Shown here piece after piece: positions 26,888-38,000 of a stretch of 38,000 nucleotides of DNA. How positions within the stretch are numbered: the stretch's first letter is position 1; every line of letters begins with the position of its first letter. The position numbers were made by a program, and so were the translations under genes. This DNA is from Flavobacteriales bacterium (lineage in GTDB: Bacteria > Bacteroidota > Bacteroidia > Flavobacteriales_D > Crocinitomicaceae), in NCBI GenBank assembly GCA_947453715.1, contig CANGHX010000006.1, forward strand, positions 1 through 38,000. Direction: 5' to 3'. Below the pieces are notes generated by a model that was not told where the DNA came from, ran no database searches, and saw nothing but the letters and a program-made list of their open reading frames with translations.

Positions 26888-27427
26888 ATGAAATCTACCT
26901 TAAGTTATTATGAACAAGATGCTTCTGAGATGCTTTCTTTTAGAAAATTAACATTAAATGATGTTGAGTTATGGAGTCGATTTTTTGAAAATAATGATCG
27001 TGAACAATTTCTAGGTCCTGTAAATTCTGAATTAACTAATTTTCAAAAGGCTGATAATTGGATTACACGTCAAATTGAACGTTATGAATCTAATGAGTTT
27101 GGTCAATTAGCTGTTATTGATCAAGCATCAAATACACTAATTGGAGTAGGAGGTATAATTCCTCGGGATTTAGATGGAAAAATTGAATTTGAGATTTCCT
27201 ATTCTTTACTACCTAATAAATGGGGGAATGGATTTGCAACTGAAATAGCAAAACATTTTAAAAATTGGGCAATTTCAAATCAATTGGCAAATTCTATCAT
27301 TTCAATCATTCATGTTGACAATTTTCCATCCAAAAATGTTGCTTTAAAAAATGAAATGAAGTTTGATTTTCGTTCAATTTTCATGTCAATTCCTGTTGAA
27401 ATTTACCGTTTTGTGATTATCAAATAA
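26888..27427 (+). CDS. GNAT family N-acetyltransferase (RimJ/RimL-like)
   Basis: 'LRKLTLNDVELWSRFF'-like start, GVGGIIPRDLDGKIEFEISYSLLPNKWGNGFATE. Confidence 0.85.
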   Translation: MKSTLSYYEQDASEMLSFRKLTLNDVELWSRFFENNDREQFLGPVNSELTNFQKADNWITRQIERYESNEFGQLAVIDQASNTLIGVGGIIPRDLDGKIEFEISYSLLPNKWGNGFATEIAKHFKNWAISNQLANSIISIIHVDNFPSKNVALKNEMKFDFRSIFMSIPVEIYRFVIIK

Positions 27428-27520
27428 TTTTCTTTTATTTTTTTTATATCCTGAAACCCGTATTAATATTGACTTATAATCTATTAAATCGATAGGATTT
27501 ATATAAAATATTCAAAAACG

Positions 27521-27552
27521 TTTGTTTATATGGAAATCTGTCCATAAATTTG
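27521..27552 (+). promoter_or_regulatory. Predicted Bacteroidota-type promoter for the sulfur operon leader
   Basis: TTTG (27521-27524), 20-nt spacer, TAAATTTG (27545-27552), matching the -33/-7 TTTG/TAnnTTTG pattern of Bacteroidota primary sigma factor. Confidence 0.6.
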
Positions 27553-27582
27553 TCACGTTTTAAGGAAATAAGATAACGTAAA

Positions 27583-27639
27583 ATGAAAGCAATTAAACTA
27601 TTTAACATGATGATGTGTTGTAACATTCTTGAAGGATGA
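27583..27639 (+). CDS. Putative Met/Cys leader peptide MKAIKLFNMMMCCNILEG
   Basis: ATG AAA GCA ATT AAA CTA TTT AAC ATG ATG ATG TGT TGT AAC ATT CTT GAA GGA TGA, just upstream of a terminator/antiterminator and the sulfite reductase gene. Confidence 0.72.
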   Translation: MKAIKLFNMMMCCNILEG

Positions 27640-27676
27640 TTGGTTGCTTTTGCAAATAAATAATCAAAAATCCTTC
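27631..27676 (+). promoter_or_regulatory. Putative antiterminator helix of a transcription attenuator
   Basis: GAAGGAT (27631-27637) complements ATCCTTC (27670-27676) and GATT (27638-27641) complements AATC (27662-27665), enclosing TTGC-TTTT-GCAA; mutually exclusive with the terminator. Confidence 0.62.
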
Positions 27677-27699
27677 TACAAAACGAAGGATTTTTTTTT
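27666..27699 (+). terminator. Intrinsic terminator within the 5' leader of the sulfur operon
   Basis: AAAAATCCTTC-TACAAAAC-GAAGGATTTTT with a nine-T tract, 40 nt before the sulfite reductase ATG; not located at the end of any annotated gene. Confidence 0.82.
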
Positions 27700-27739: not shown

Positions 27740-29869
27740 ATGGAAAGCTTTTTATCAGAATTAGAAAACCCATTAGTTCAAAAAGATATTATTGAATTAG
27801 GAGATAAAATTGCAGCTTATAAAAGTGGAGAATTGAATGAAGATAAGTTCAAAGCTTTACGTTTAGCTAGAGGAGTTTATGGACAACGTCAACAAGGTGT
27901 TCAAATGATTCGAATTAAACTTCCCTTTGGTAGAGTTTCTGCAGATCAGCTAAGAAGGATATGTGATGTTTCTGATGAATATAGCACAGGGAATTTACAT
28001 ATCACAACGCGGCAAGATATTCAAATCCATTATGTGAGTTTAGATCGAACTCCACAATTATGGGCTGAATTGGAAAAAAGCGATGTGACTTTGAGAGAAG
28101 CGTGTGGTAATACTGTAAGAAATGTAACAGCAAGTCCATTAGCAGGTATCGATAAAAATGAACCGTTTGATGTTGCGCCATACGCTGATTTAGTTTTTAG
28201 ATACTTTTTAAGAAAACCATTTGGACAAGAATTAGGTCGAAAAATTAAGATTGCTTTTAGTTCAAATGATTTAGATGATGCATTTACATTTATACATGAT
28301 TTTGGATTTATTCCTAAAATAGAAAGTAAATTAGGAGTTGAGGTAAAAGGTTTTAAAGTTTTGATTGGTGGTGGATTAGGGGCTCAGCCATTTTTAGCGA
28401 AAGTTGGATATGAGTTTTTACCTGAAGAAGAATTAATTTCATTCTTGGAAGCAGCAGTTAGAGTTTTTGATAGACATGGAGAGCGTAATTCAAGACATAA
28501 AGCAAGAATAAAATATTTAATTGCTAAAGTAGGAATTGAAGAGTTTTTGAGTTTAGTAGAAGCTGAAAGAAAAGCGATTCAATACCAAGCAGAAGATTTC
28601 GTTTTGATTCCACAAGGTGAATTTAATGAAGTTCCAAAGTTTATTCTTTCAAAAGAAGAAGTTTTGAATGACATTGAAGATGCTGATTTCAAAAAATGGG
28701 TTGAAACAAATGTAGTTGAACAAAAACAAGCTGGATATTTTGCTGCTTTCGTAAAAGTATTGATTGGAAATTTCACAACTGAACAAGCAAGAAAATTAGC
28801 TTTAATTATAGAAAAATATACATCAGACGAAGCAAGGTTTACAATTGATCAAAGTGTTTTGTTAAAGTATATCTTACCAGAGAATTTGAAAGCTGTTTAT
28901 GAAGGATTAAAAGAAATTAATTTACATAAATCTGGTTATAATAGTGTGGCTGATGTTACAGCTTGTCCTGGAACAGATACGTGTAATTTGGGGATCTCAG
29001 ACTCAACTCATGTTGCAAAAGTGATTGAACAGTTAATTCAAGATGAATACCCTGAATATATTTATAATCAAGAGATTAAAATAAAAATAAGTGGTTGTAT
29101 GAATTCATGTGGTCAGCATGGTTTGGCACACATTGGATTCCATGGTAGTTCTCAAAAGGTAAATGGATTAACAGTTCCTGCTTTACAAGTATTATTAGGT
29201 GGAGGTAAACTAGGAAATGGATTTGGAAGAATTGCTGAAAAAGTAATTAAAATCCCAAGCAAAAGAGTTTTAGATATCATTCGTTATTTATTGAATGATT
29301 ACTCAGAGAACCAACTAGGAGATGAATTATTTAATGAATATTATGACAGACAAGGAAATAAGTATTTCTATGATTTATTAAAACCTTTGGCTGATACAAC
29401 AACATTAAAACCAGAAGATTTTATCGATTGGGGACAAACAGAGCAATTCAAGACAGAAATTGGAGTTGGAGAATGTGCTGGAGTATTAATTGATTTAGTT
29501 TCGACCTTGTTTTATGATGCAGAAGAAAAGTTGGATGCAGCTAAAACTTCTTTGAATGAAGGACGATTTGCTGATGCAATTTATCAATCATATGCTTCTG
29601 GAATTCATGCAGCTAAAGGGTTGTTGCTTCAAGCAAAGGTTCATTGTAATACACAGTCAGGAATTATTTCTGATTTTGATAAAAACTTTGAAAATCAATT
29701 TCAATTTGAGGGATATGAAAACTTTACAGATTTTATCCTACAAATCAATAAAAATGAACCTTCAGAAGTCTTTGCACTTGAATATAATAAACGAATGCAA
29801 ATCCTCTTAAATGAGGCTATAAAATACCGTTCAACTTTATTAACAATTGTTGAAAACGAAAAAGCATAA
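27740..29869 (+). CDS. Siroheme/4Fe-4S sulfite (or nitrite) reductase with C-terminal HEPN-like domain
   Basis: TACPGTDTCNLGISDS and SGCMNSCGQHG siroheme/4Fe-4S cysteines; sulfur-assimilation context; alpha-helical C-terminus with HEPN character. Confidence 0.92.
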   Translation: MESFLSELENPLVQKDIIELGDKIAAYKSGELNEDKFKALRLARGVYGQRQQGVQMIRIKLPFGRVSADQLRRICDVSDEYSTGNLHITTRQDIQIHYVSLDRTPQLWAELEKSDVTLREACGNTVRNVTASPLAGIDKNEPFDVAPYADLVFRYFLRKPFGQELGRKIKIAFSSNDLDDAFTFIHDFGFIPKIESKLGVEVKGFKVLIGGGLGAQPFLAKVGYEFLPEEELISFLEAAVRVFDRHGERNSRHKARIKYLIAKVGIEEFLSLVEAERKAIQYQAEDFVLIPQGEFNEVPKFILSKEEVLNDIEDADFKKWVETNVVEQKQAGYFAAFVKVLIGNFTTEQARKLALIIEKYTSDEARFTIDQSVLLKYILPENLKAVYEGLKEINLHKSGYNSVADVTACPGTDTCNLGISDSTHVAKVIEQLIQDEYPEYIYNQEIKIKISGCMNSCGQHGLAHIGFHGSSQKVNGLTVPALQVLLGGGKLGNGFGRIAEKVIKIPSKRVLDIIRYLLNDYSENQLGDELFNEYYDRQGNKYFYDLLKPLADTTTLKPEDFIDWGQTEQFKTEIGVGECAGVLIDLVSTLFYDAEEKLDAAKTSLNEGRFADAIYQSYASGIHAAKGLLLQAKVHCNTQSGIISDFDKNFENQFQFEGYENFTDFILQINKNEPSEVFALEYNKRMQILLNEAIKYRSTLLTIVENEKA

Positions 29870-29976: not shown

Positions 29977-30750
29977 ATGAATACAAATAAACAAAATAAT
30001 CCGAAAGTTACATTGGTTGGTGCTGGTCCTGGTGACATTGAATTGCTAACTATAAAAGGTTTGAAAGCAATTCAAAAAGCAGATGTAATATTGTATGATG
30101 CTTTAGTAAATGAAGAGTTGTTAAATGAAGCGCCAAACGCAGAAAAGATTTTTGTAGGAAAAAGAAGAGGGTTTAAAGCATATTCTCAAGAAGAAATCAA
30201 TCGATTAATTGTGGATAAAGCTTTTTTAAGTGGAAATGTAGTTCGATTAAAAGGTGGAGATTCGTTCGTTTTTGGAAGAGGCTCAGAAGAATTACACTAC
30301 GTTGAAGCTTTTGGGATTGAAACGGAAGTGATTCCAGGTATATCAAGTTCAATTTCAGTTCCTGCTTTAGCTGGGATTCCAGTAACTCATAGAGGAGTTA
30401 GTAATAGTTTCTTTGTATTATCTGGAACTTTATCAAATGGTGAATTAAATCCAGAAATAAAAGTAGCGACAAAATCTTCTGGGACGGTCGTTATATTAAT
30501 GGGTATTTCTAAATTGAACGAGATAGTTGATATTTATAAAAAATACGGAAAAGAGAACGAAGCAATAGCAATTATTTATAACGGTTCATTGCCTTCACAA
30601 TCAACTGTTGTTGGAACAATTGATTCGATTTCTGAAATCGCTGAAGCAAATAAAAATTCTGGGCCAGGAATTATAGTAATTGGTTCAGTGGTTGAAATTT
30701 CAGCAATTTATAATGACAGCAGTTATTTATTTGAGAAAATAGTACTGTAA
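29977..30750 (+). CDS. cobA: Uroporphyrinogen-III C-methyltransferase
   Basis: VTLVGAGPGDIELLTIKGLKAIQKADVILYDALV, RLKGGDSFVFGRGSEE, GITSS-like PGISSSISVPALAGIPVTHRG. Confidence 0.95.
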   Translation: MNTNKQNNPKVTLVGAGPGDIELLTIKGLKAIQKADVILYDALVNEELLNEAPNAEKIFVGKRRGFKAYSQEEINRLIVDKAFLSGNVVRLKGGDSFVFGRGSEELHYVEAFGIETEVIPGISSSISVPALAGIPVTHRGVSNSFFVLSGTLSNGELNPEIKVATKSSGTVVILMGISKLNEIVDIYKKYGKENEAIAIIYNGSLPSQSTVVGTIDSISEIAEANKNSGPGIIVIGSVVEISAIYNDSSYLFEKIVL

Positions 30751-30812
30751 TTTCTTTTGGCTACATGCAAATATATACACATACACAATTAACATTTAAA
30801 ACAGTAACAAGA

Positions 30813-33701
30813 ATGAAGACAAAATTACAAGCGTTTATTTTATTCCTAACGCTCTTTGGAGTTCAAACAGTCTTTTCACAAAATGGATTGATTCAACTTT
30901 CAGGGAAATTGGATGACAAATCGACTGGCCAACCTTTGGTTGGTGCAGTTGTAAAAATTAAAGATACCGATAATTCTGTTACAACAGATGCAGAAGGTAA
31001 ATTCACGATTAAGACAGCAAATGCTTTTCCTATTTTTATATTAATAAGTTTTGGAGAATATGAAAATCAAGAGTTTAAAATCGAAAATGAAAAATCACAA
31101 TTGAATTTTCAGTTAGAGCCAAAATCGATTTTAACCAATACAGTTGTTGTATCTGCATCGAGAATTAGTGAGAATATCTTAAAATCTCCAGTAGCAATTG
31201 ATAAATTGGATATTAGAGCATTGAGAGAAACTCCTGCTCCGACATACTATGATGCAATTGAAAACGTAAAAGGTGTTCAGTTGACAACTTCAAGTTTAAC
31301 TTTGAAAGTACCAAATACGAGAGGTTTCAACTCTCCAAATAACTTTCGTTTCATGCAGTTAGTAGATGGTGTTGATTTACAGGCTCCAACATTAGGTGTT
31401 TCAATTGGTAATACAATCGGACCAAACGAATTGGATATCAAAAGTGTTGAAATTATACCTGGAACTTCTTCAGCGTTGTATGGTATTAATTCAATTAATG
31501 GTTTAGCGAATTTACAAACTAAAGACCCTTATTTAAACCAAGGAGCAAGTGTTTATCAAAGAACTGGTATTAATCATGTAGACAATAAAGATCATGGTTT
31601 AAGTTTTCTAGGTGAAACAGCGTTTCGTGTAGCAGGAACAGTTGATTCAGCAAAAAGAATTGCCTATAAAGTGAATGGTTCTTATTTTCAAGGGGTTGAT
31701 TGGGTTTCATCTAATTTGACAGATCAAAATCCTTATAATTTAACTACATCAAATCCAAATTATCCTCAATTCAGTTCTGCAGACATTAATCCTGCTTATG
31801 ATGGATGGAATCGTTATGGAGATGAAAAAAACAATACAGTTACCGATACATTGAAACATGGAGCGACTAAAGAGGTTTTTAATGTTCGAAGAACAGGTTA
31901 TAGTGAGAAAGATTTAGTGAATCCTACAGTGAAAACAATCAAATTTGATGCAGGATTATTTTATAAATTTAAAAACGATGCTCAAATTAGTTATGTATAC
32001 CGTTTAGGGACTATGGATGGAGTTTTCCAAAGAGGAAATAAAATTCAATTGGATGGTTTATTACTTCAAAGTCACGCTTTAGAGTATAAAGGAAAAAAAT
32101 TGACAGCAAAAGTATATGCAAATTCTGAGGATACTAAAAACTCATACAATTTAAAACCATTAGCAGATAATTTAGATTTAACATTTAAATCAAATAAACA
32201 ATGGGCTAAAGATTATCAAACAGCATTAAACTCAGCATATACGTCAAATGGTGGGGATTTAACTGCAGCACATGAAGCAGCAAGAGCAGCAGCAGATGCT
32301 GGAAGACCAGAACCAGGTTCAGATTTATTTAATCAACGTAAAGAAACAATTATTGGGATAAATAACTGGGATCATCCTACTTTGTATCCTTACGTTTCAG
32401 CTCAAGATCCAACAAATACTACAGGTGGTGCGGCATTATGGCAAAAAAGTAAAATGTATCATGGAGAGGTACAATATGATTTATCTTCAGTAACAAAAAA
32501 CTTTGTGAATGTTTTAGTTGGTACCGATGCTCGTTTGTATACTATTTTACCTGATGGAAATAACTTTGTTGATTTTACAAAACCGTTATCGGAAAGAAAT
32601 ACTCCAGGTGGAAATAATGTAACGTACACTAAATTTGGAGGTTTTGCTCAAGTGAGTAAAGAGTTATTTGATCAAAAATTAAAGTTGGTAGGTTCTTTAA
32701 GATATGATAAAAACCTTGACTTTGATGGAAAATGGAATCCTAGAATTGCAGCGGTTTATTCTCCTAATAAAAAGAGTTCAATTCGTATCTCTGGACAGAA
32801 TGGATACAGATTCCCAGCACTATTCGAAGCATTATCTTATGTGAATAATGGAGGTGTAAGACGTGTTGGTGGATTAGAAAAAGTGAATGAAGGATTAAAT
32901 TATTTAGATAATTCATATACGCAAACTTCAATTGACGCATTTCAAGCTGCTGTAAAAGCAGATATTAAAGGTGGTTTGACTTCTTCTCAAGCAATCGCTA
33001 AAGAACAAGGTAAATTAGTAGTTGCTAATTTACAAAGAATGCAGCCTGAACAAGTGAAAGCGTTGGATTTAGGTTATAAAGCTGTATTTTTTAACAATCA
33101 TTTTGTAATTGATGCTGATGCTTACTTTAATGAATACAAAGGATTCTTAGGTCAAATTGAAGTTGCAGTTCCAAATGGACACACTGTTGGTACAATTGAG
33201 GCAGCAACAGATGCGAATAATAAAGCAAATCAAACAAGATATAGAGTTTATACAAATGCAACAAATACATATTATGGTTATGGATCTGCAATTCGTTTAA
33301 GCTATAATTTCTTAGGGAAATATTCAATTTCAGGAAACTTTAATTACAATGATTTCCAAGCGAAAGAAAAAACTGATATTTTTACAACAGCATTCAATAC
33401 GCCAAAATATTCAGCTAACATCCAATTTGGAAATAGAGAAATAGTTAAAAATTTAGGATTTAATATTGTTTGGAAATGGCAAGATGCTTACGATTGGCAA
33501 AGTCCATTAGCTAACGGTAGAGTTGCTGCATATAGTACTTTTGATGCTCAAGTTTCTTACAAATTAGAGAAAGCGCATACAAATATTAAAGTAGGTGGAA
33601 CGAATATCTTTAACAGACGTTATTTCCAATATGCTGCAGGACCAAATATCGGAGCATTATATTATGTTAGTTTAACATTTGATGCACCTTTTAAAAAGTA
33701 A
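30813..33701 (+). CDS. TonB-dependent receptor with N-terminal carboxypeptidase-regulatory-like domain
   Basis: Signal peptide from Met 30813; GKLDDKSTGQPLVGAVVKIKDTDNSVTTDAEGKF; plug 'VEIIPGTSSALYG'; C-terminal YYVSLTFDAPF beta-strand. Confidence 0.93.
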   Translation: MKTKLQAFILFLTLFGVQTVFSQNGLIQLSGKLDDKSTGQPLVGAVVKIKDTDNSVTTDAEGKFTIKTANAFPIFILISFGEYENQEFKIENEKSQLNFQLEPKSILTNTVVVSASRISENILKSPVAIDKLDIRALRETPAPTYYDAIENVKGVQLTTSSLTLKVPNTRGFNSPNNFRFMQLVDGVDLQAPTLGVSIGNTIGPNELDIKSVEIIPGTSSALYGINSINGLANLQTKDPYLNQGASVYQRTGINHVDNKDHGLSFLGETAFRVAGTVDSAKRIAYKVNGSYFQGVDWVSSNLTDQNPYNLTTSNPNYPQFSSADINPAYDGWNRYGDEKNNTVTDTLKHGATKEVFNVRRTGYSEKDLVNPTVKTIKFDAGLFYKFKNDAQISYVYRLGTMDGVFQRGNKIQLDGLLLQSHALEYKGKKLTAKVYANSEDTKNSYNLKPLADNLDLTFKSNKQWAKDYQTALNSAYTSNGGDLTAAHEAARAAADAGRPEPGSDLFNQRKETIIGINNWDHPTLYPYVSAQDPTNTTGGAALWQKSKMYHGEVQYDLSSVTKNFVNVLVGTDARLYTILPDGNNFVDFTKPLSERNTPGGNNVTYTKFGGFAQVSKELFDQKLKLVGSLRYDKNLDFDGKWNPRIAAVYSPNKKSSIRISGQNGYRFPALFEALSYVNNGGVRRVGGLEKVNEGLNYLDNSYTQTSIDAFQAAVKADIKGGLTSSQAIAKEQGKLVVANLQRMQPEQVKALDLGYKAVFFNNHFVIDADAYFNEYKGFLGQIEVAVPNGHTVGTIEAATDANNKANQTRYRVYTNATNTYYGYGSAIRLSYNFLGKYSISGNFNYNDFQAKEKTDIFTTAFNTPKYSANIQFGNREIVKNLGFNIVWKWQDAYDWQSPLANGRVAAYSTFDAQVSYKLEKAHTNIKVGGTNIFNRRYFQYAAGPNIGALYYVSLTFDAPFKK

Positions 33702-33710
33702 AATAAAAGA

Positions 33711-34097
33711 ATGAAAAAAAAGTTTATAAACATTTTATTCCTTTTCAGTACGTTTTCTGTTTTTGCTCAACAGCAAGAACAGAAAACGGCTGTTTTTAAT
33801 ATAGAAGGACAAATAGCAGTTGCTACAGATGGAAAAGGAGCATTTCTGAATTTGGGTGGTCCAAATGTGAAGTTCAATTTTAGTAAAGTTGCGGTAGCTA
33901 TAAACTTCATGCCTTCTCTTCGTTTTCAAGAAGATAAAGTGAAAAGTTTTGTAACACCAATGTTAGGTTTTGGACCACAATTTTATTTTTTAAAAAATAA
34001 GAGAACAATTTTGAGTTTTCCAGCATATTATAATACATCAAATAACCTATGGATTTTTACTGCAGGAATTGGTTATGTTTTAAAAAAATCAAAATAG
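33711..34097 (+). CDS. Small exported, possibly outer-membrane barrel-like hypothetical protein
   Basis: Signal peptide ending VFAQ; Gly/aromatic-rich beta-pattern; 9 nt after the TonB receptor. Confidence 0.65.
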   Translation: MKKKFINILFLFSTFSVFAQQQEQKTAVFNIEGQIAVATDGKGAFLNLGGPNVKFNFSKVAVAINFMPSLRFQEDKVKSFVTPMLGFGPQFYFLKNKRTILSFPAYYNTSNNLWIFTAGIGYVLKKSK

Positions 34098-34145
34098 TCA
34101 ATCAACTAATCACTTCAAATCAAATTTAAAAGAAAGAATTATAGA

Positions 34146-35633
34146 ATGAATACAACTAAAAAAGATAAAAACGAATTATTCCCAGTTTTTTTAAAACTGA
34201 ACGAATTAAATGTTTTAATTATTGGTGGTGGAAAAATAGGTTTGGAGAAATTATCATCTGTAATTTCAAATTCTCCTTTGAGCAGAGTGAAAGTTGTTGC
34301 TATTTCCTTCATCGATGAGTTGAAACAATTCGTAGAATCTTATCCTTTAGTTGAATTGATTGAATCTGAGTTCAAAGATGAACATTTAGAAGGGATTCAA
34401 ATTGTTATTTCTGCTTTGAATAATGTTGAATTATCCGAGCAGATTAAAAGAACAGTAAACCAGAAAGGGATTTTATACAATGCAGCGGATAAACCTGAAT
34501 TATGTGATTTTTACCTTGGTTCTACCGTTACAAAAGGAAATTTAAAAATCGGAATTTCGACAAATGGCAAGTCACCAACTGTCGCAAAACGATTAAAAGA
34601 AATATTTAATGACAATATTCCAAATGAAATAGATAATTCATTGGAGAATTTAAGTAAAATAAGAAATCATTTGAAAGGTGATTTTCAACGTAAAATTGTA
34701 CAATTAGATAAGATTACAAGTGAATTAAAAGAAAATAAAGCAAAAGCTTGGTATCATTTTAGTTTTAAAAAAGTGTTTGGCTATGCAGCTTCGATTATCG
34801 GAATTATGCTTGCAGGACATTTGTTATTTACAATTATCCCTTTAGAATCAATTTGGAGTAAAACGGGAGAATTGGCTTCAACCTTAAATATCGATTTTGT
34901 ATATTTTATGATCGGTGGATTTATTGCTCAAATGATCGATGGTGCACTTGGAATGGCTTATGGTGTGAGTGCGACAACTTTCTTGTTGTCTTTTGGAGTT
35001 ACTCCTGCAGTTGCAAGTATGAGTGTTCATACTTCTGAAATATTCACTAGTGGTGTTTCGGGTTTTATGCATTTAAGATTTGGAAACGTTAATAATAAAT
35101 TATTTAAAACCATTTTAATTCCTGGAGTTATTGGTTCAATTCTAGGTGCATACATTTTGTCTGAGTTTGAAAATTATAATACATATATAAAACCGGTGGT
35201 TGGAGTTTATACATTGATTTTGGGGATCATAATTATACACAAGGTTGTCAAAAAGAACACAAGACGTAAAAAAGTCAGTCATGTAGGTTGGTTAGCAACT
35301 GCAGGAGGATTTTTAGATGCAATCGGTGGAGGAGGATGGGGGCCTGTTGTTTCTTCAACGTTGATTGCAAGAGGAAAAAATCCAAGGCTAATAATTGGTT
35401 CAGTTAATTTGGCTGAGTTTTTTGTCTCGTTAGCAAGTTCATTTACTTTTTTTACTTTAATCGGTACTTCTCATTGGCAAACATTTGTTGGTTTAATTTT
35501 AGGAGGTGTTTGTGCAGCTCCAATTGCAGCATACCTGTCGAGAAAATTAAATGTAAAAGCAATGATGTTAATGGTTGGAATTATAATAATTATTGTTAGT
35601 TTAAGGATTATAATTATGACTATTTTAAAATAA
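34146..35633 (+). CDS. Fusion of siroheme synthase N-terminal (Met8/CysG-N-like) domain with a TSUP (TauE/SafE) transporter
   Basis: N-term LNVLIIGGGKIGLEKLSS…LYNAADKPELCDFYLGSTVTKGNLKIGISTNGKSPTVAKRLKE; C-term multi-TM FIAQMIDGALGMAYGVSATTFLL…GGFLDAIGGGGWGPVVSSTLIARGKNPR. Confidence 0.92.
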   Translation: MNTTKKDKNELFPVFLKLNELNVLIIGGGKIGLEKLSSVISNSPLSRVKVVAISFIDELKQFVESYPLVELIESEFKDEHLEGIQIVISALNNVELSEQIKRTVNQKGILYNAADKPELCDFYLGSTVTKGNLKIGISTNGKSPTVAKRLKEIFNDNIPNEIDNSLENLSKIRNHLKGDFQRKIVQLDKITSELKENKAKAWYHFSFKKVFGYAASIIGIMLAGHLLFTIIPLESIWSKTGELASTLNIDFVYFMIGGFIAQMIDGALGMAYGVSATTFLLSFGVTPAVASMSVHTSEIFTSGVSGFMHLRFGNVNNKLFKTILIPGVIGSILGAYILSEFENYNTYIKPVVGVYTLILGIIIIHKVVKKNTRRKKVSHVGWLATAGGFLDAIGGGGWGPVVSSTLIARGKNPRLIIGSVNLAEFFVSLASSFTFFTLIGTSHWQTFVGLILGGVCAAPIAAYLSRKLNVKAMMLMVGIIIIIVSLRIIIMTILK

Positions 35634-35652
35634 ATATTAATAAATAAAAGAT

Positions 35653-36531
35653 ATGAAAAAAGTATATTTAAGTGATTCAGGACCAGTAACATCAGATTCT
35701 ATTTATAGTTTTTGGAGATGGAGTGAAGCAAATGATTTGACTAGTGAGAAAATTGAAGACATTACAAATTACTGTTTAGACTTAGGGATTACAGGATTTG
35801 ATTTGTCAAACTCATATGGACTAGGAAGAGTTGAAGAATTATTCGGAAATGCGATTGCGAATAAATCATTGAAAAGAGATGAATTTGTTTTGTTTTCAAA
35901 AGTTGGATATAAATCGAATGATCCTCAAACAGGTAAAATAATTTATAATCAACTGACTGAAAAGTATTTAGTTAAAACAGTTGAAGATTCTTTGAAAAAA
36001 CTGAATACAGATTACATTGATGTTTTATTGTTGAAAGATTATGATCCGTTAATGAAAGCGGAAGAAGTTGTCTCAGCTTTAAACAAGTTAGTGTATAGTG
36101 GAAAAGTAAAACACATCGGTATTTCTGATTTCAATGTGTTTGAACATCAATTACTTTCTAATTTATCATTGGATATTGTGACAAATCATTTTGAATTGAA
36201 TTTATTTAATTCTTCAGCTGTTCATGATGGCCGATTAGCATTTGCGAAAGAGAAATATGTTAAACCAATGGCATGGGCTCCTTTAGCAGACGGAAGAATT
36301 TTATACGGACATGATAATGAAGCTTTAGCAATTAGAGATATATTAAGCGATATAGCTTTAAAGTATGATTCTAATATTGAACAGATTGCTGTTGCTTGGA
36401 TTCATAAATTAGGAGCTCTTCCAATTATAGGAAGTTTAAATAAAGAAAGAATTAAAAATGCAGCTACAGCTAGTGAAGTTAAACTTTCGCATGAAGATTG
36501 GCATAGAATATATAATGTTACCAAAAGATAA
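35653..36531 (+). CDS. Aldo/keto reductase
   Basis: GITGFDLSNSYGLGRVEELFG, LNTDYIDVLLLKDYDP, KHIGISDFN. Confidence 0.9.
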   Translation: MKKVYLSDSGPVTSDSIYSFWRWSEANDLTSEKIEDITNYCLDLGITGFDLSNSYGLGRVEELFGNAIANKSLKRDEFVLFSKVGYKSNDPQTGKIIYNQLTEKYLVKTVEDSLKKLNTDYIDVLLLKDYDPLMKAEEVVSALNKLVYSGKVKHIGISDFNVFEHQLLSNLSLDIVTNHFELNLFNSSAVHDGRLAFAKEKYVKPMAWAPLADGRILYGHDNEALAIRDILSDIALKYDSNIEQIAVAWIHKLGALPIIGSLNKERIKNAATASEVKLSHEDWHRIYNVTKR

Positions 36532-36542
36532 AAATAATCAAC

Positions 36543-36576
36543 TTCCTCCCTTGAGGGAGGATTGAGGAGGGTGATA
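36543..36576. repeat. Second copy of the REP-like element
   Basis: TTCCTCCCTTGAGGGAGGATTGAGGAGGGTGATA, closely matching 21558-21590. Confidence 0.7.
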
Positions 36577-36598
36577 ATTTTTTAATATAATTTATAGA

Positions 36599-37279
36599 AT
36601 GAAATTAAACAATATCGAAGAACTTTCTTTGGAAGAAGTATTGAAGGAAATAGCAACTCAATATGGAGATAAAGCTGCTTTTTCAACTAGTTTGAGTTGG
36701 GAAGATCAGGTTATTTCACATCATATTTTTGCTAATAATCTTCCAATTCGTGTTTTTACTTTGGATACAGGAAGAATGTTTCCTGAAACGTACAACGTAT
36801 TAAATAGAACAAAAGATCGATATGGAAAAGTGATTGAAGTCTATTTTCCGAATAATGAATCGGTTGAAAAATTGGTTACTTCAAAAGGTCCTTTGAGTTT
36901 CTATGAATCTTTAGAAAACAGAAAAGAATGCTGTAATATTCGAAAAGTTGAACCATTAAATAGAGCATTAAAAGGAGTCGAAGTTTGGATTACTGGTTTA
37001 AGAGCAGAACATTCTGATAATAGAAAAGACCTTTCGATAGTAGAGAAAGATGATCAGAGAAATATTATTAAAGTGAATCCATTATTGAATTGGTCGTTTG
37101 AAGAAGTGAAAGCGGAAATATCAAAGCACAATATTCCATATAATATTCTTCATGATAAAGGTTTTGTAAGTATTGGATGTCAACCGTGTACAAGAGCAAT
37201 AAAAGAAGGAGAAGATTTCAGAGCCGGAAGATGGTGGTGGGAAGATACAAGTAAAAAAGAATGCGGATTGCATTCGTAG
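36599..37279 (+). CDS. cysH: Phosphoadenylyl/adenylyl-sulfate reductase, probable 4Fe-4S APS reductase type
   Basis: RKECCNIRKVEPL, SIGCQPCTRAI and terminal KKECGLHS motifs. Confidence 0.94.
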   Translation: MKLNNIEELSLEEVLKEIATQYGDKAAFSTSLSWEDQVISHHIFANNLPIRVFTLDTGRMFPETYNVLNRTKDRYGKVIEVYFPNNESVEKLVTSKGPLSFYESLENRKECCNIRKVEPLNRALKGVEVWITGLRAEHSDNRKDLSIVEKDDQRNIIKVNPLLNWSFEEVKAEISKHNIPYNILHDKGFVSIGCQPCTRAIKEGEDFRAGRWWWEDTSKKECGLHS

Positions 37280-37280
37280 C

Positions 37281-37298
37281 GACGAATTGCAATTCGTC
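37281..37298. repeat. Perfect 18-bp palindrome
   Basis: GACGAATTGCAATTCGTC equals its own reverse complement; 1 nt after the cysH stop. Confidence 0.9.
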
Positions 37299-37410
37299 AC
37301 AACAATGCAATTCGTCCCAACAATTCAAACCGTCCCAACAATTCAAACCGTCCCAACAATGCAATTCGTCCCAACAATGCAATTCGTCCCAACAATGCAT
37401 TCGTTCCAAT
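37285..37410. repeat. 18-bp tandem repeat, 7 units, between cysH and cysD
   Basis: Units at 37285, 37303, 37321, 37339, 37357, 37375, 37393; consensus CAATGCAATTCGTCCCAA with a CAATTCAAACCGTCCCAA variant in units 3-4. Confidence 0.92.
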
Positions 37411-37437
37411 AAAAGATAATAATATCAAAATAAAAAA

Positions 37438-38000
37438 ATGAGTAAAATAAATTATTTAGATGAATTAGAAGCAGAAGCAATTTACATTTTACGTGAAGTT
37501 GCTGGTCAATTTGATCGTCCTGCTTTATTATTTAGTGGTGGTAAAGATAGTATCTGCTTAGTTCATTTAGCGCTTAAAGCATTTCGTCCTGGTAAATTCC
37601 CATTTCCATTAGTCCATGTAGATACAGGTCACAATGCACCTGAAGTGATTGCATACAGAGATAAATTAGCTGAAAAGTTAGGTGAAAAATTAATTGTTCG
37701 TAAAGTAGAAGATACTATCAAAGAAAGAAATCTTCAAGATGGAAAAGGAAAATTCCCAAGTAGAAATCCTTTACAAACGTATACTTTACTAGATACAATT
37801 GAAGAATTCGAATTTGATGCTTGTATTGGTGGAGCTAGAAGAGATGAAGAGAAAGCAAGAGCAAAAGAGCGTATTTTCTCAGTAAGAGATGAATTTGGAC
37901 AATGGGATCCTAAAAAACAACGTCCTGAGTTATGGAATATCTATAATGGTAAAATTGATAAAGGTGAGAACGTTCGTGTATTTCCAATCAGTAATTGGAC
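37438..38000 (+). CDS. cysD: Sulfate adenylyltransferase small subunit (truncated by window end)
   Basis: MSKINYLDELEAEAIYILREVAGQFDRPALLFSGGKDSICLVHLALKAFRPGKFPFPLVHVDTGHN…GGARRDEEKARAKERIFSVRDEFGQWDPKKQRPELW. Confidence 0.96.
   Translation, partial: MSKINYLDELEAEAIYILREVAGQFDRPALLFSGGKDSICLVHLALKAFRPGKFPFPLVHVDTGHNAPEVIAYRDKLAEKLGEKLIVRKVEDTIKERNLQDGKGKFPSRNPLQTYTLLDTIEEFEFDACIGGARRDEEKARAKERIFSVRDEFGQWDPKKQRPELWNIYNGKIDKGENVRVFPISNW

Follow-up and report, generated by a model that had tools for sequence, protein, structure and literature searches.

What role, if any, does a reading frame of only 18 codons, with an uninterrupted run of methionine and cysteine codons, play in front of a group of sulfate-assimilation genes? 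We addressed this question in a 38,000-nucleotide stretch of Crocinitomicaceae DNA (the window). Read from the window sequence, the leader open reading frame (ORF) has 18 codons plus TGA (ATG AAA GCA ATT AAA CTA TTT AAC ATG ATG ATG TGT TGT AAC ATT CTT GAA GGA TGA) and encodes the peptide MKAIKLFNMMMCCNILEG, which is identical at loci L012-L014 and L219. It contains just two Cys codons, fewer than are found in many relatives, and 100 nt separate its stop codon from the start of the siroheme reductase gene (27740). The leader and the genes that follow it are arranged as follows:

27583-27639, forward strand: leader ORF, 18 codons plus stop.
27607-27621, forward strand: putative sensor codons ATG ATG ATG TGT TGT, codons 9-13 of the leader (Met9-Met11 and Cys12-Cys13), from the sequence.
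27740-29869, forward strand: first controlled gene, a siroheme/4Fe-4S reductase assigned as assimilatory sulfite reductase (Pfam NIR_SIR, NIR_SIR_ferr).
29977-38000, forward strand: probable remainder of the operon, from gene order: uroporphyrinogen-III methyltransferase, TonB receptor, a 128-aa protein, a siroheme-synthase/TauE fusion, aldo/keto reductase, cysH and cysD.

The best NCBIfam matches of the reductase, to the NirA family, fall below the cut-offs, and we assigned it as a sulfite reductase because of its operon context. The genes from the reductase to cysD, the latter truncated by the end of the window, are likely to be co-transcribed, as inferred from their order and strand. Two further features of this region were observed: the siroheme-synthase N-terminal domain and a TauE/SafE sulfite-exporter domain are fused in one 495-aa protein (34146-35633), and short direct repeats (CAATTCGTCCCAACAATG and variants) lie between cysH and cysD (37280-37400). 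Upstream of the leader, a GNAT gene reads in the same direction and ends at 27427. Elsewhere in the genome, the word ATGATGTGTTGT has one copy besides that at the leader. This copy (L002) is not a second leader: it is in a different frame, within an unrelated coding ORF. TGTTGT followed by T8 gave 11 rows in the window's own genome, versus 20 for the reversed control; among the matches inspected, a Cys leader with a hairpin could be confirmed at the window locus only, and L073 and L074 also have hairpins.

Transcription of the leader would begin at a putative promoter, for which the start site is inferred:

27521-27552, forward strand: TTTG (27521-27524), a 20-nt spacer and TAAATTTG (27545-27552), from the sequence.

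The Bacteroidota promoter consensus has elements at -33 and -7, which TTTG and TAAATTTG match, and TAnnTTTG is also found 5' of the first leader at L035 and L038.

We found that the RNA between this promoter and the reductase gene can adopt alternative structures, built from the following parts:

27585-27596, forward strand: region 1, the protector stem, which pairs with 27640-27651 in the absence of a ribosome (minimum-energy fold of the whole leader).
27631-27646, forward strand: region 2, the 5' strand of the antiterminator, overlapping the stop codon (nascent-transcript fold).
27661-27676, forward strand: region 3, the 3' strand of the antiterminator and 5' arm of the terminator (fold, and, in other genera, co-variation with the end of the leader).
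27666-27699, forward strand: intrinsic terminator (region 3:4), stem 27666-27676/27685-27695 and U-run 27691-27699, -11.8 kcal/mol (sequence and folding).

The end of the ORF (GAAGGAT, 27631-27637) copies the terminator 3' arm, read from 27685. Being complementary to the 5' arm at 27670-27676, it is able to pair with that arm and block the terminator. With a ribosome placed at the first Cys codon, the predicted nascent fold is an antiterminator (27631-27637/27670-27676 plus 27640-27646/27661-27667, -13.9 kcal/mol) in which the first helix has a pairing probability of 0.94-1.0. Once the ribosome is placed at the stop codon instead, the terminator alone is predicted to remain (-11.8 kcal/mol), and with no ribosome 27585-27596 is predicted to pair with 27640-27651 and the terminator to form. 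The minimum-energy fold of the whole leader has z = -2.5 relative to shuffles. These parts and alternative structures are shown by sequence and computation; the limits of the ribosome footprint used in the predictions are assumptions, drawn from what is generally known of such limits. When the stalled segment was folded at full length at equilibrium, the terminator was preferred (-16.8), and we infer, without measurements, that the switch therefore depends on coupling and on the order of co-transcriptional folding. Other attenuators likewise rely on folding order.

The leader meets three of the expectations for a trp-type attenuator: the ORF carries codons for the product of the pathway; an intrinsic terminator is present between the ORF and the first gene (the stop-to-terminator distance has a median of 25 nt across the units described below); and, according to the predicted fold and the cross-genus co-variation but with no biochemical data, a mutually exclusive antiterminator is uncovered by a stall and covered by a ribosome at the stop codon. 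We conclude that the element is very likely a ribosome-mediated (trp-type) transcription attenuator of the sulfate-assimilation operon, a conclusion that rests on sequence and computation, without expression, ribosome-profiling or in vitro data. In the mechanism we propose, RNA polymerase would start near 27558 and a ribosome would begin the 18-codon ORF. If Cys-tRNA, and possibly Met-tRNA, were plentiful, the ribosome would reach the stop codon and cover 27631-27646; the terminator would form, and transcription would end before the sulfite reductase gene. If Cys-tRNA were scarce, the ribosome would stall at codons 12-13 and leave 27631-27646 free for 27661-27676, an antiterminator that could form before the 3' arm of the terminator is made, and the operon would be transcribed. 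In the absence of translation, the pairing of 27585-27596 with 27640-27651 would let the terminator form. That the ribosome stalls, that charged tRNA is what is read out, and how strongly and in which direction the operon is regulated are all inferences.

If the leader has a function, its design should recur at other sulfite reductase genes. We searched for the reductase gene in 119 relatives and in 396 genomes of the class, 95 of which have it, and inspected the DNA upstream. We found 66 leader-terminator units at 52 sulfite reductase loci, distributed within the class Bacteroidia over 26 genera in 16 families. In the window and its relatives, 71 strong terminators lie upstream of the reductase gene, and 61 of them have a short ATG-initiated ORF with adjacent Cys codons just 5' of them. 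The opposite strand gave 2/71, and 200 dinucleotide shuffles averaged 2.1, never exceeding 7; when windows matched at 230 nt were compared, the counts were 59 (plus strand) and 2 (minus strand). Scored as failures were L063, L064 (distal), L093, L128 and one spurious hairpin at L118, where an ORF with two Cys codons is absent, as well as L044 and L067, where the Cys codons of the leader are fewer or split. The set contains near-identical congeners (L011-L014), and genus counts are therefore the safer measure: adjacent Cys codons occur in the leaders of 25 of the 26 genera, with up to four in succession in four of them. Across the class, Cys accounts for 14.6% and non-start Met for 12.6% of leader residues. 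Examples of the leaders are MINQNKMMCCCCKSTERWKW (L118), MNTIQNICGRFYRCCAMCCCTSA (L129) and MKTNWTFNGIKATCCTMCCTCCAL (L065). Isolates of Salegentibacter species also have the leader (L211, L212 and L214, the last with MNREKSQIIMCRFMCIPST and a terminator).

The position of the leader follows the operon: in operons led by an aldo/keto reductase or peroxiredoxin gene, the leader precedes that gene (L308, L314, L333-L336, L338, L339). At 14 loci in nine genera, two complete attenuators stand in series before one gene (L032, L035, L038, L041, L049, L088, L091, L104, L115, L118, L121, L123, L127, L134). At L032 and L054, the attenuator and the reductase gene are separated by a tRNA-Cys(GCA) gene, and at L046/L339 such a gene lies 3' of the leader and the peroxiredoxin gene, inside the controlled operon; at these three loci, the supply of tRNA-Cys would be tied to the same switch. 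The close relatives L016-L018 and L021-L023 are without the leader, which is therefore dispensable. No Cys leader with a terminator was found at the cysD, cysK, cystathionine-beta-synthase-like and cysM genes in up to 16 genomes. A class-wide pattern of Met-Cys-Cys plus GCTTTTTT returned mainly chance matches, yet it exposed the leaders of the aldo/keto-reductase-led operons. Other matches to the Met-Cys-Cys pattern with a hairpin, L325-L332, were not accepted, as they have no clear adjoining sulfur gene. One of these, L325 (214-288), consists of an MCCCCDL ORF and a terminator and may be a chance match. Its genome carries the sulfite reductase operon some 115 kb away, and the ORF that comes next codes for a protein that is short and probably exported.

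We found that, beyond its first Cys codon, the leader pairs with the 5' arm of its own terminator at a mean of -13.1 kcal/mol, versus -7.4 kcal/mol with the 3' arm of that terminator and -8.9 kcal/mol with the 5' arms of other genera. The means of all genera (26/26) fall on the side expected for pairing with the own 5' arm (Wilcoxon p = 8e-6); thus the terminator and the leader end change together. In most units, some 12-40 nt separate the first Cys codon from the start of the antiterminator, whose end is close to the stop codon. The codons themselves bear a mark of selection: in congeneric pairs, synonymous versus non-synonymous changes number 28 versus 33 at Cys codons and 90 versus 421 at other codons (Fisher p = 2e-6, from pairs that are not independent). 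This synonymous bias at Cys codons supports translation of the leader, as inferred from sequence alone, without ribosome data. Besides Cys and Met, the leader peptides have little in common. Together, these results demonstrate, at the level of sequence and computation, both conservation and co-variation: it is the design of the attenuator that is conserved, and not its sequence. Given these counterparts across the Bacteroidia, a shortage of Cys, and perhaps of Met, very probably turns on sulfur assimilation in this class by stalling the ribosome.

These data bear on the original prediction, which had claimed an 18-codon ORF with a Met/Cys run at 27583-27639, ahead of a sulfite reductase/SUMT/CysH/CysD group. 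The ORF held exactly, coordinates included, and the placement held as well, with the gene order confirmed. A T-rich terminator was expected after the short ORF and was found; its coordinates, missing from that prediction, are 27666-27699. Failure of the Met/Cys run to be conserved in homologous leaders was named as a refutation, and the opposite was seen: Cys runs occur class-wide, each with a terminator that the end of the leader can disrupt. The proposed mechanism, attenuation by stalling at Cys codons, is well supported by the sequence, in particular by the geometry of the switch and the pattern of change at the Cys codons; the part assigned to Met is plausible and unproven.

Four other readings must be weighed against or beside a Cys-sensing attenuator. 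The one that survives best refines it rather than competes with it: the mixed run may sense the charging of both tRNAs, such that a shortage of either amino acid stalls the ribosome. Non-start Met is abundant in the leaders, at the share given above, and is concentrated beside Cys: among non-Cys residues, Met accounts for 129/361 (36%) where a Cys lies no more than two codons away and for 64/929 (7%) elsewhere, and MC or CM occurs in 22/26 genera and MM in 17/26. However, some leaders have Cys runs with no adjacent Met (e.g. L029, L039), Met is more dispensable than Cys, and Met codons could serve as extra starts, with Met starvation hindering initiation too. We regard the matter as close to evenly balanced, leaning slightly against, the role of Met being unproven.

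Less likely, though possible, is that a repressor is the main control and the attenuator a minor second layer. A candidate operator for a DNA-binding repressor lies upstream of the promoter:

27481-27495, forward strand: palindrome CTATTAAATCGATAG, from its recurrence in relatives.

The palindrome is found, exactly or nearly, 5' of sulfite reductase at L011, L012, L014, L016, L017, L019-L021, L048, L062 and L064, and it is retained at several loci where the leader is gone. In addition, a gene for an Rrf2-type regulator, recognised by eye from its sequence, adjoins the leader in several relatives of other genera. From sequence alone, the palindrome is perhaps an operator of such a regulator; the regulator in the window's genome is unidentified. 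Against repressor dominance, the attenuator is retained across 26 genera and doubled in nine, which suggests real regulatory weight. The two layers are compatible, and in many species they likely act together.

We consider it very unlikely that the leader encodes a functional Cys/Met-rich peptide, for metal or redox binding, or a peptide that itself arrests the ribosome, rather than a sensor of tRNA charging. Peptides rich in Cys and Met are able to bind metals, and arrest peptides are known; the leaders, however, show no conservation beyond Cys and Met and no common motif of fixed spacing, and their coupling with terminator pairing points to the position of the ribosome. Finally, that the hairpin is merely the terminator of the upstream GNAT gene and the short ORF accidental, as the end of that gene in the same direction might suggest, is all but excluded by the intervening promoter-like element and ORF and, above all, by the 61/71 recurrence and the co-variation, which in effect already refute it.

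Apart from the attenuator, we observed a second arrangement, present in the genome of the window and in its family, at metX or trans-sulfuration genes. Here the gene is preceded by an ORF of 28-45 codons with a run of Cys codons at its end, and this ORF follows a SAM-I riboswitch at a distance of 7-14 nt. The instance in the genome of the window itself is L196 (G000, contig C53, 13623-15024; ORF peptide MEKSTTFTAFAFNSQIEKFKFSFILLNIVFSMCCCM), and further cases are L195, in which the ORF has a single Cys only, L197, L198, L255-L260, L265, L268-L271, L273-L277, L282, L285, L287 and L290. All 20 riboswitch-linked ORFs tested have at least two Cys codons among the last 12 (20/20; shuffles, mean 1.2/20, maximum 6), and Cys makes up 36% of these last 12 codons versus 0.4% of those before. 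No consistent terminator was seen after these ORFs. At L261-L263, L266, L267, L286 and L291, the place of the poly-Cys ORF is taken by the start of the main gene, suggesting that the riboswitch gates translation of whichever ORF comes next. The SAM riboswitches linked to metH are without a Cys ORF. The metX arrangement is possibly a SAM-gated Cys sensor, and it may prove more novel than the attenuator at sulfite reductase.

A bolder reading joins the two: Bacteroidia would sense sulfur through Cys (or Cys/Met) codons in two forms, one of terminator type at sulfite reductase, with leaders often paired in series and sometimes a tRNA-Cys gene in the operon, and one at metX and related genes of the window's family, in which a SAM-I riboswitch gates translation of the poly-Cys ORF. 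We hold this reading tentatively, with the balance slightly against it. If true, the metX form would place a metabolite sensor ahead of a tRNA-charging sensor and so combine two inputs, such that, for example, methionine would be made only when SAM is low and cysteine available.

How does the sulfite reductase attenuator compare with known systems? It shares with the classical trp, his and ilv attenuators of Proteobacteria the four-region folding, the regulatory codons and the intrinsic terminator; the codons, the pathway and the phylum differ, and the Bacteroidia system often has tandem attenuators. Also close is the uORFC-8-2 motif 5' of cysS in Rhodobacterales, which also has a short ORF with two tandem Cys codons, an intrinsic terminator and predicted ribosome-mediated attenuation (PMC8632094). 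That motif, in contrast, belongs to Alphaproteobacteria, targets cysteinyl-tRNA synthetase and is conserved in sequence, and the pertinent sections mention no Met run or tandem units (PMC8632094); the window leader is not upstream of cysS, its target being a sulfite-reductase-type gene. In Actinobacteria, poly-Cys leaders are known, as the original prediction had correctly stated; they are ORFs of the cys operons with no conserved terminator (PMC1262725). Both kinds of leader place a Cys run before cysteine or sulfur genes, but only that of the window has an intrinsic terminator. The leaders of mycobacteria, reported to be Cys-responsive, are described as translation attenuation (Canestrari 2020, as cited in PMC13236596), and the title of that paper refers to leaderless ORFs (cited in PMC13236596). 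Tandem short ORFs and attenuators in one leader are also known from Salmonella mgtCBR (PMC3641672); its signals differ, and no amino-acid biosynthesis is involved.

Within the phylum, there are clues for leader-peptide attenuation before amino-acid biosynthesis operons of F. psychrophilum, although neither a cysteine nor a sulfate-assimilation operon is named among them in the main text (PMC9723704). Bacteroidota also have the Bacteroid-trp RNA (RF01692; PMC2864571), a trp attenuator. An Rfam scan of the window leader gave only sub-threshold matches, of which the nearby one, to Phe_leader, scored 26.1 bits where the gathering score is 55, and at the leaders scanned no family, SAM or other riboswitches included, reached its gathering score. 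We found no description of a Bacteroidia Cys/Met attenuator in the open-access literature searched, in agreement with the original prediction, which knew of none in Bacteroidota; subscription papers and supplements were outside the scope, and novelty is thus provisional. As Cys-codon attenuators are known or predicted elsewhere, the sulfite reductase version in Bacteroidia is a new variant.

RNA-family libraries miss this attenuator because its design is kept while its sequence is free, and this suggests that further attenuators have been overlooked in the phylum. Bacteroidota rarely use Shine-Dalgarno starts, and an attenuator of this type implies that in these bacteria ribosomes follow RNA polymerase closely enough. 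The tandem units and the tRNA-Cys genes inside the operon raise questions about dose response and feedback. In the literature searched, we came across no account of the control of sulfate assimilation in Bacteroidota; a class-wide Cys/Met attenuator would provide a direct, testable answer.
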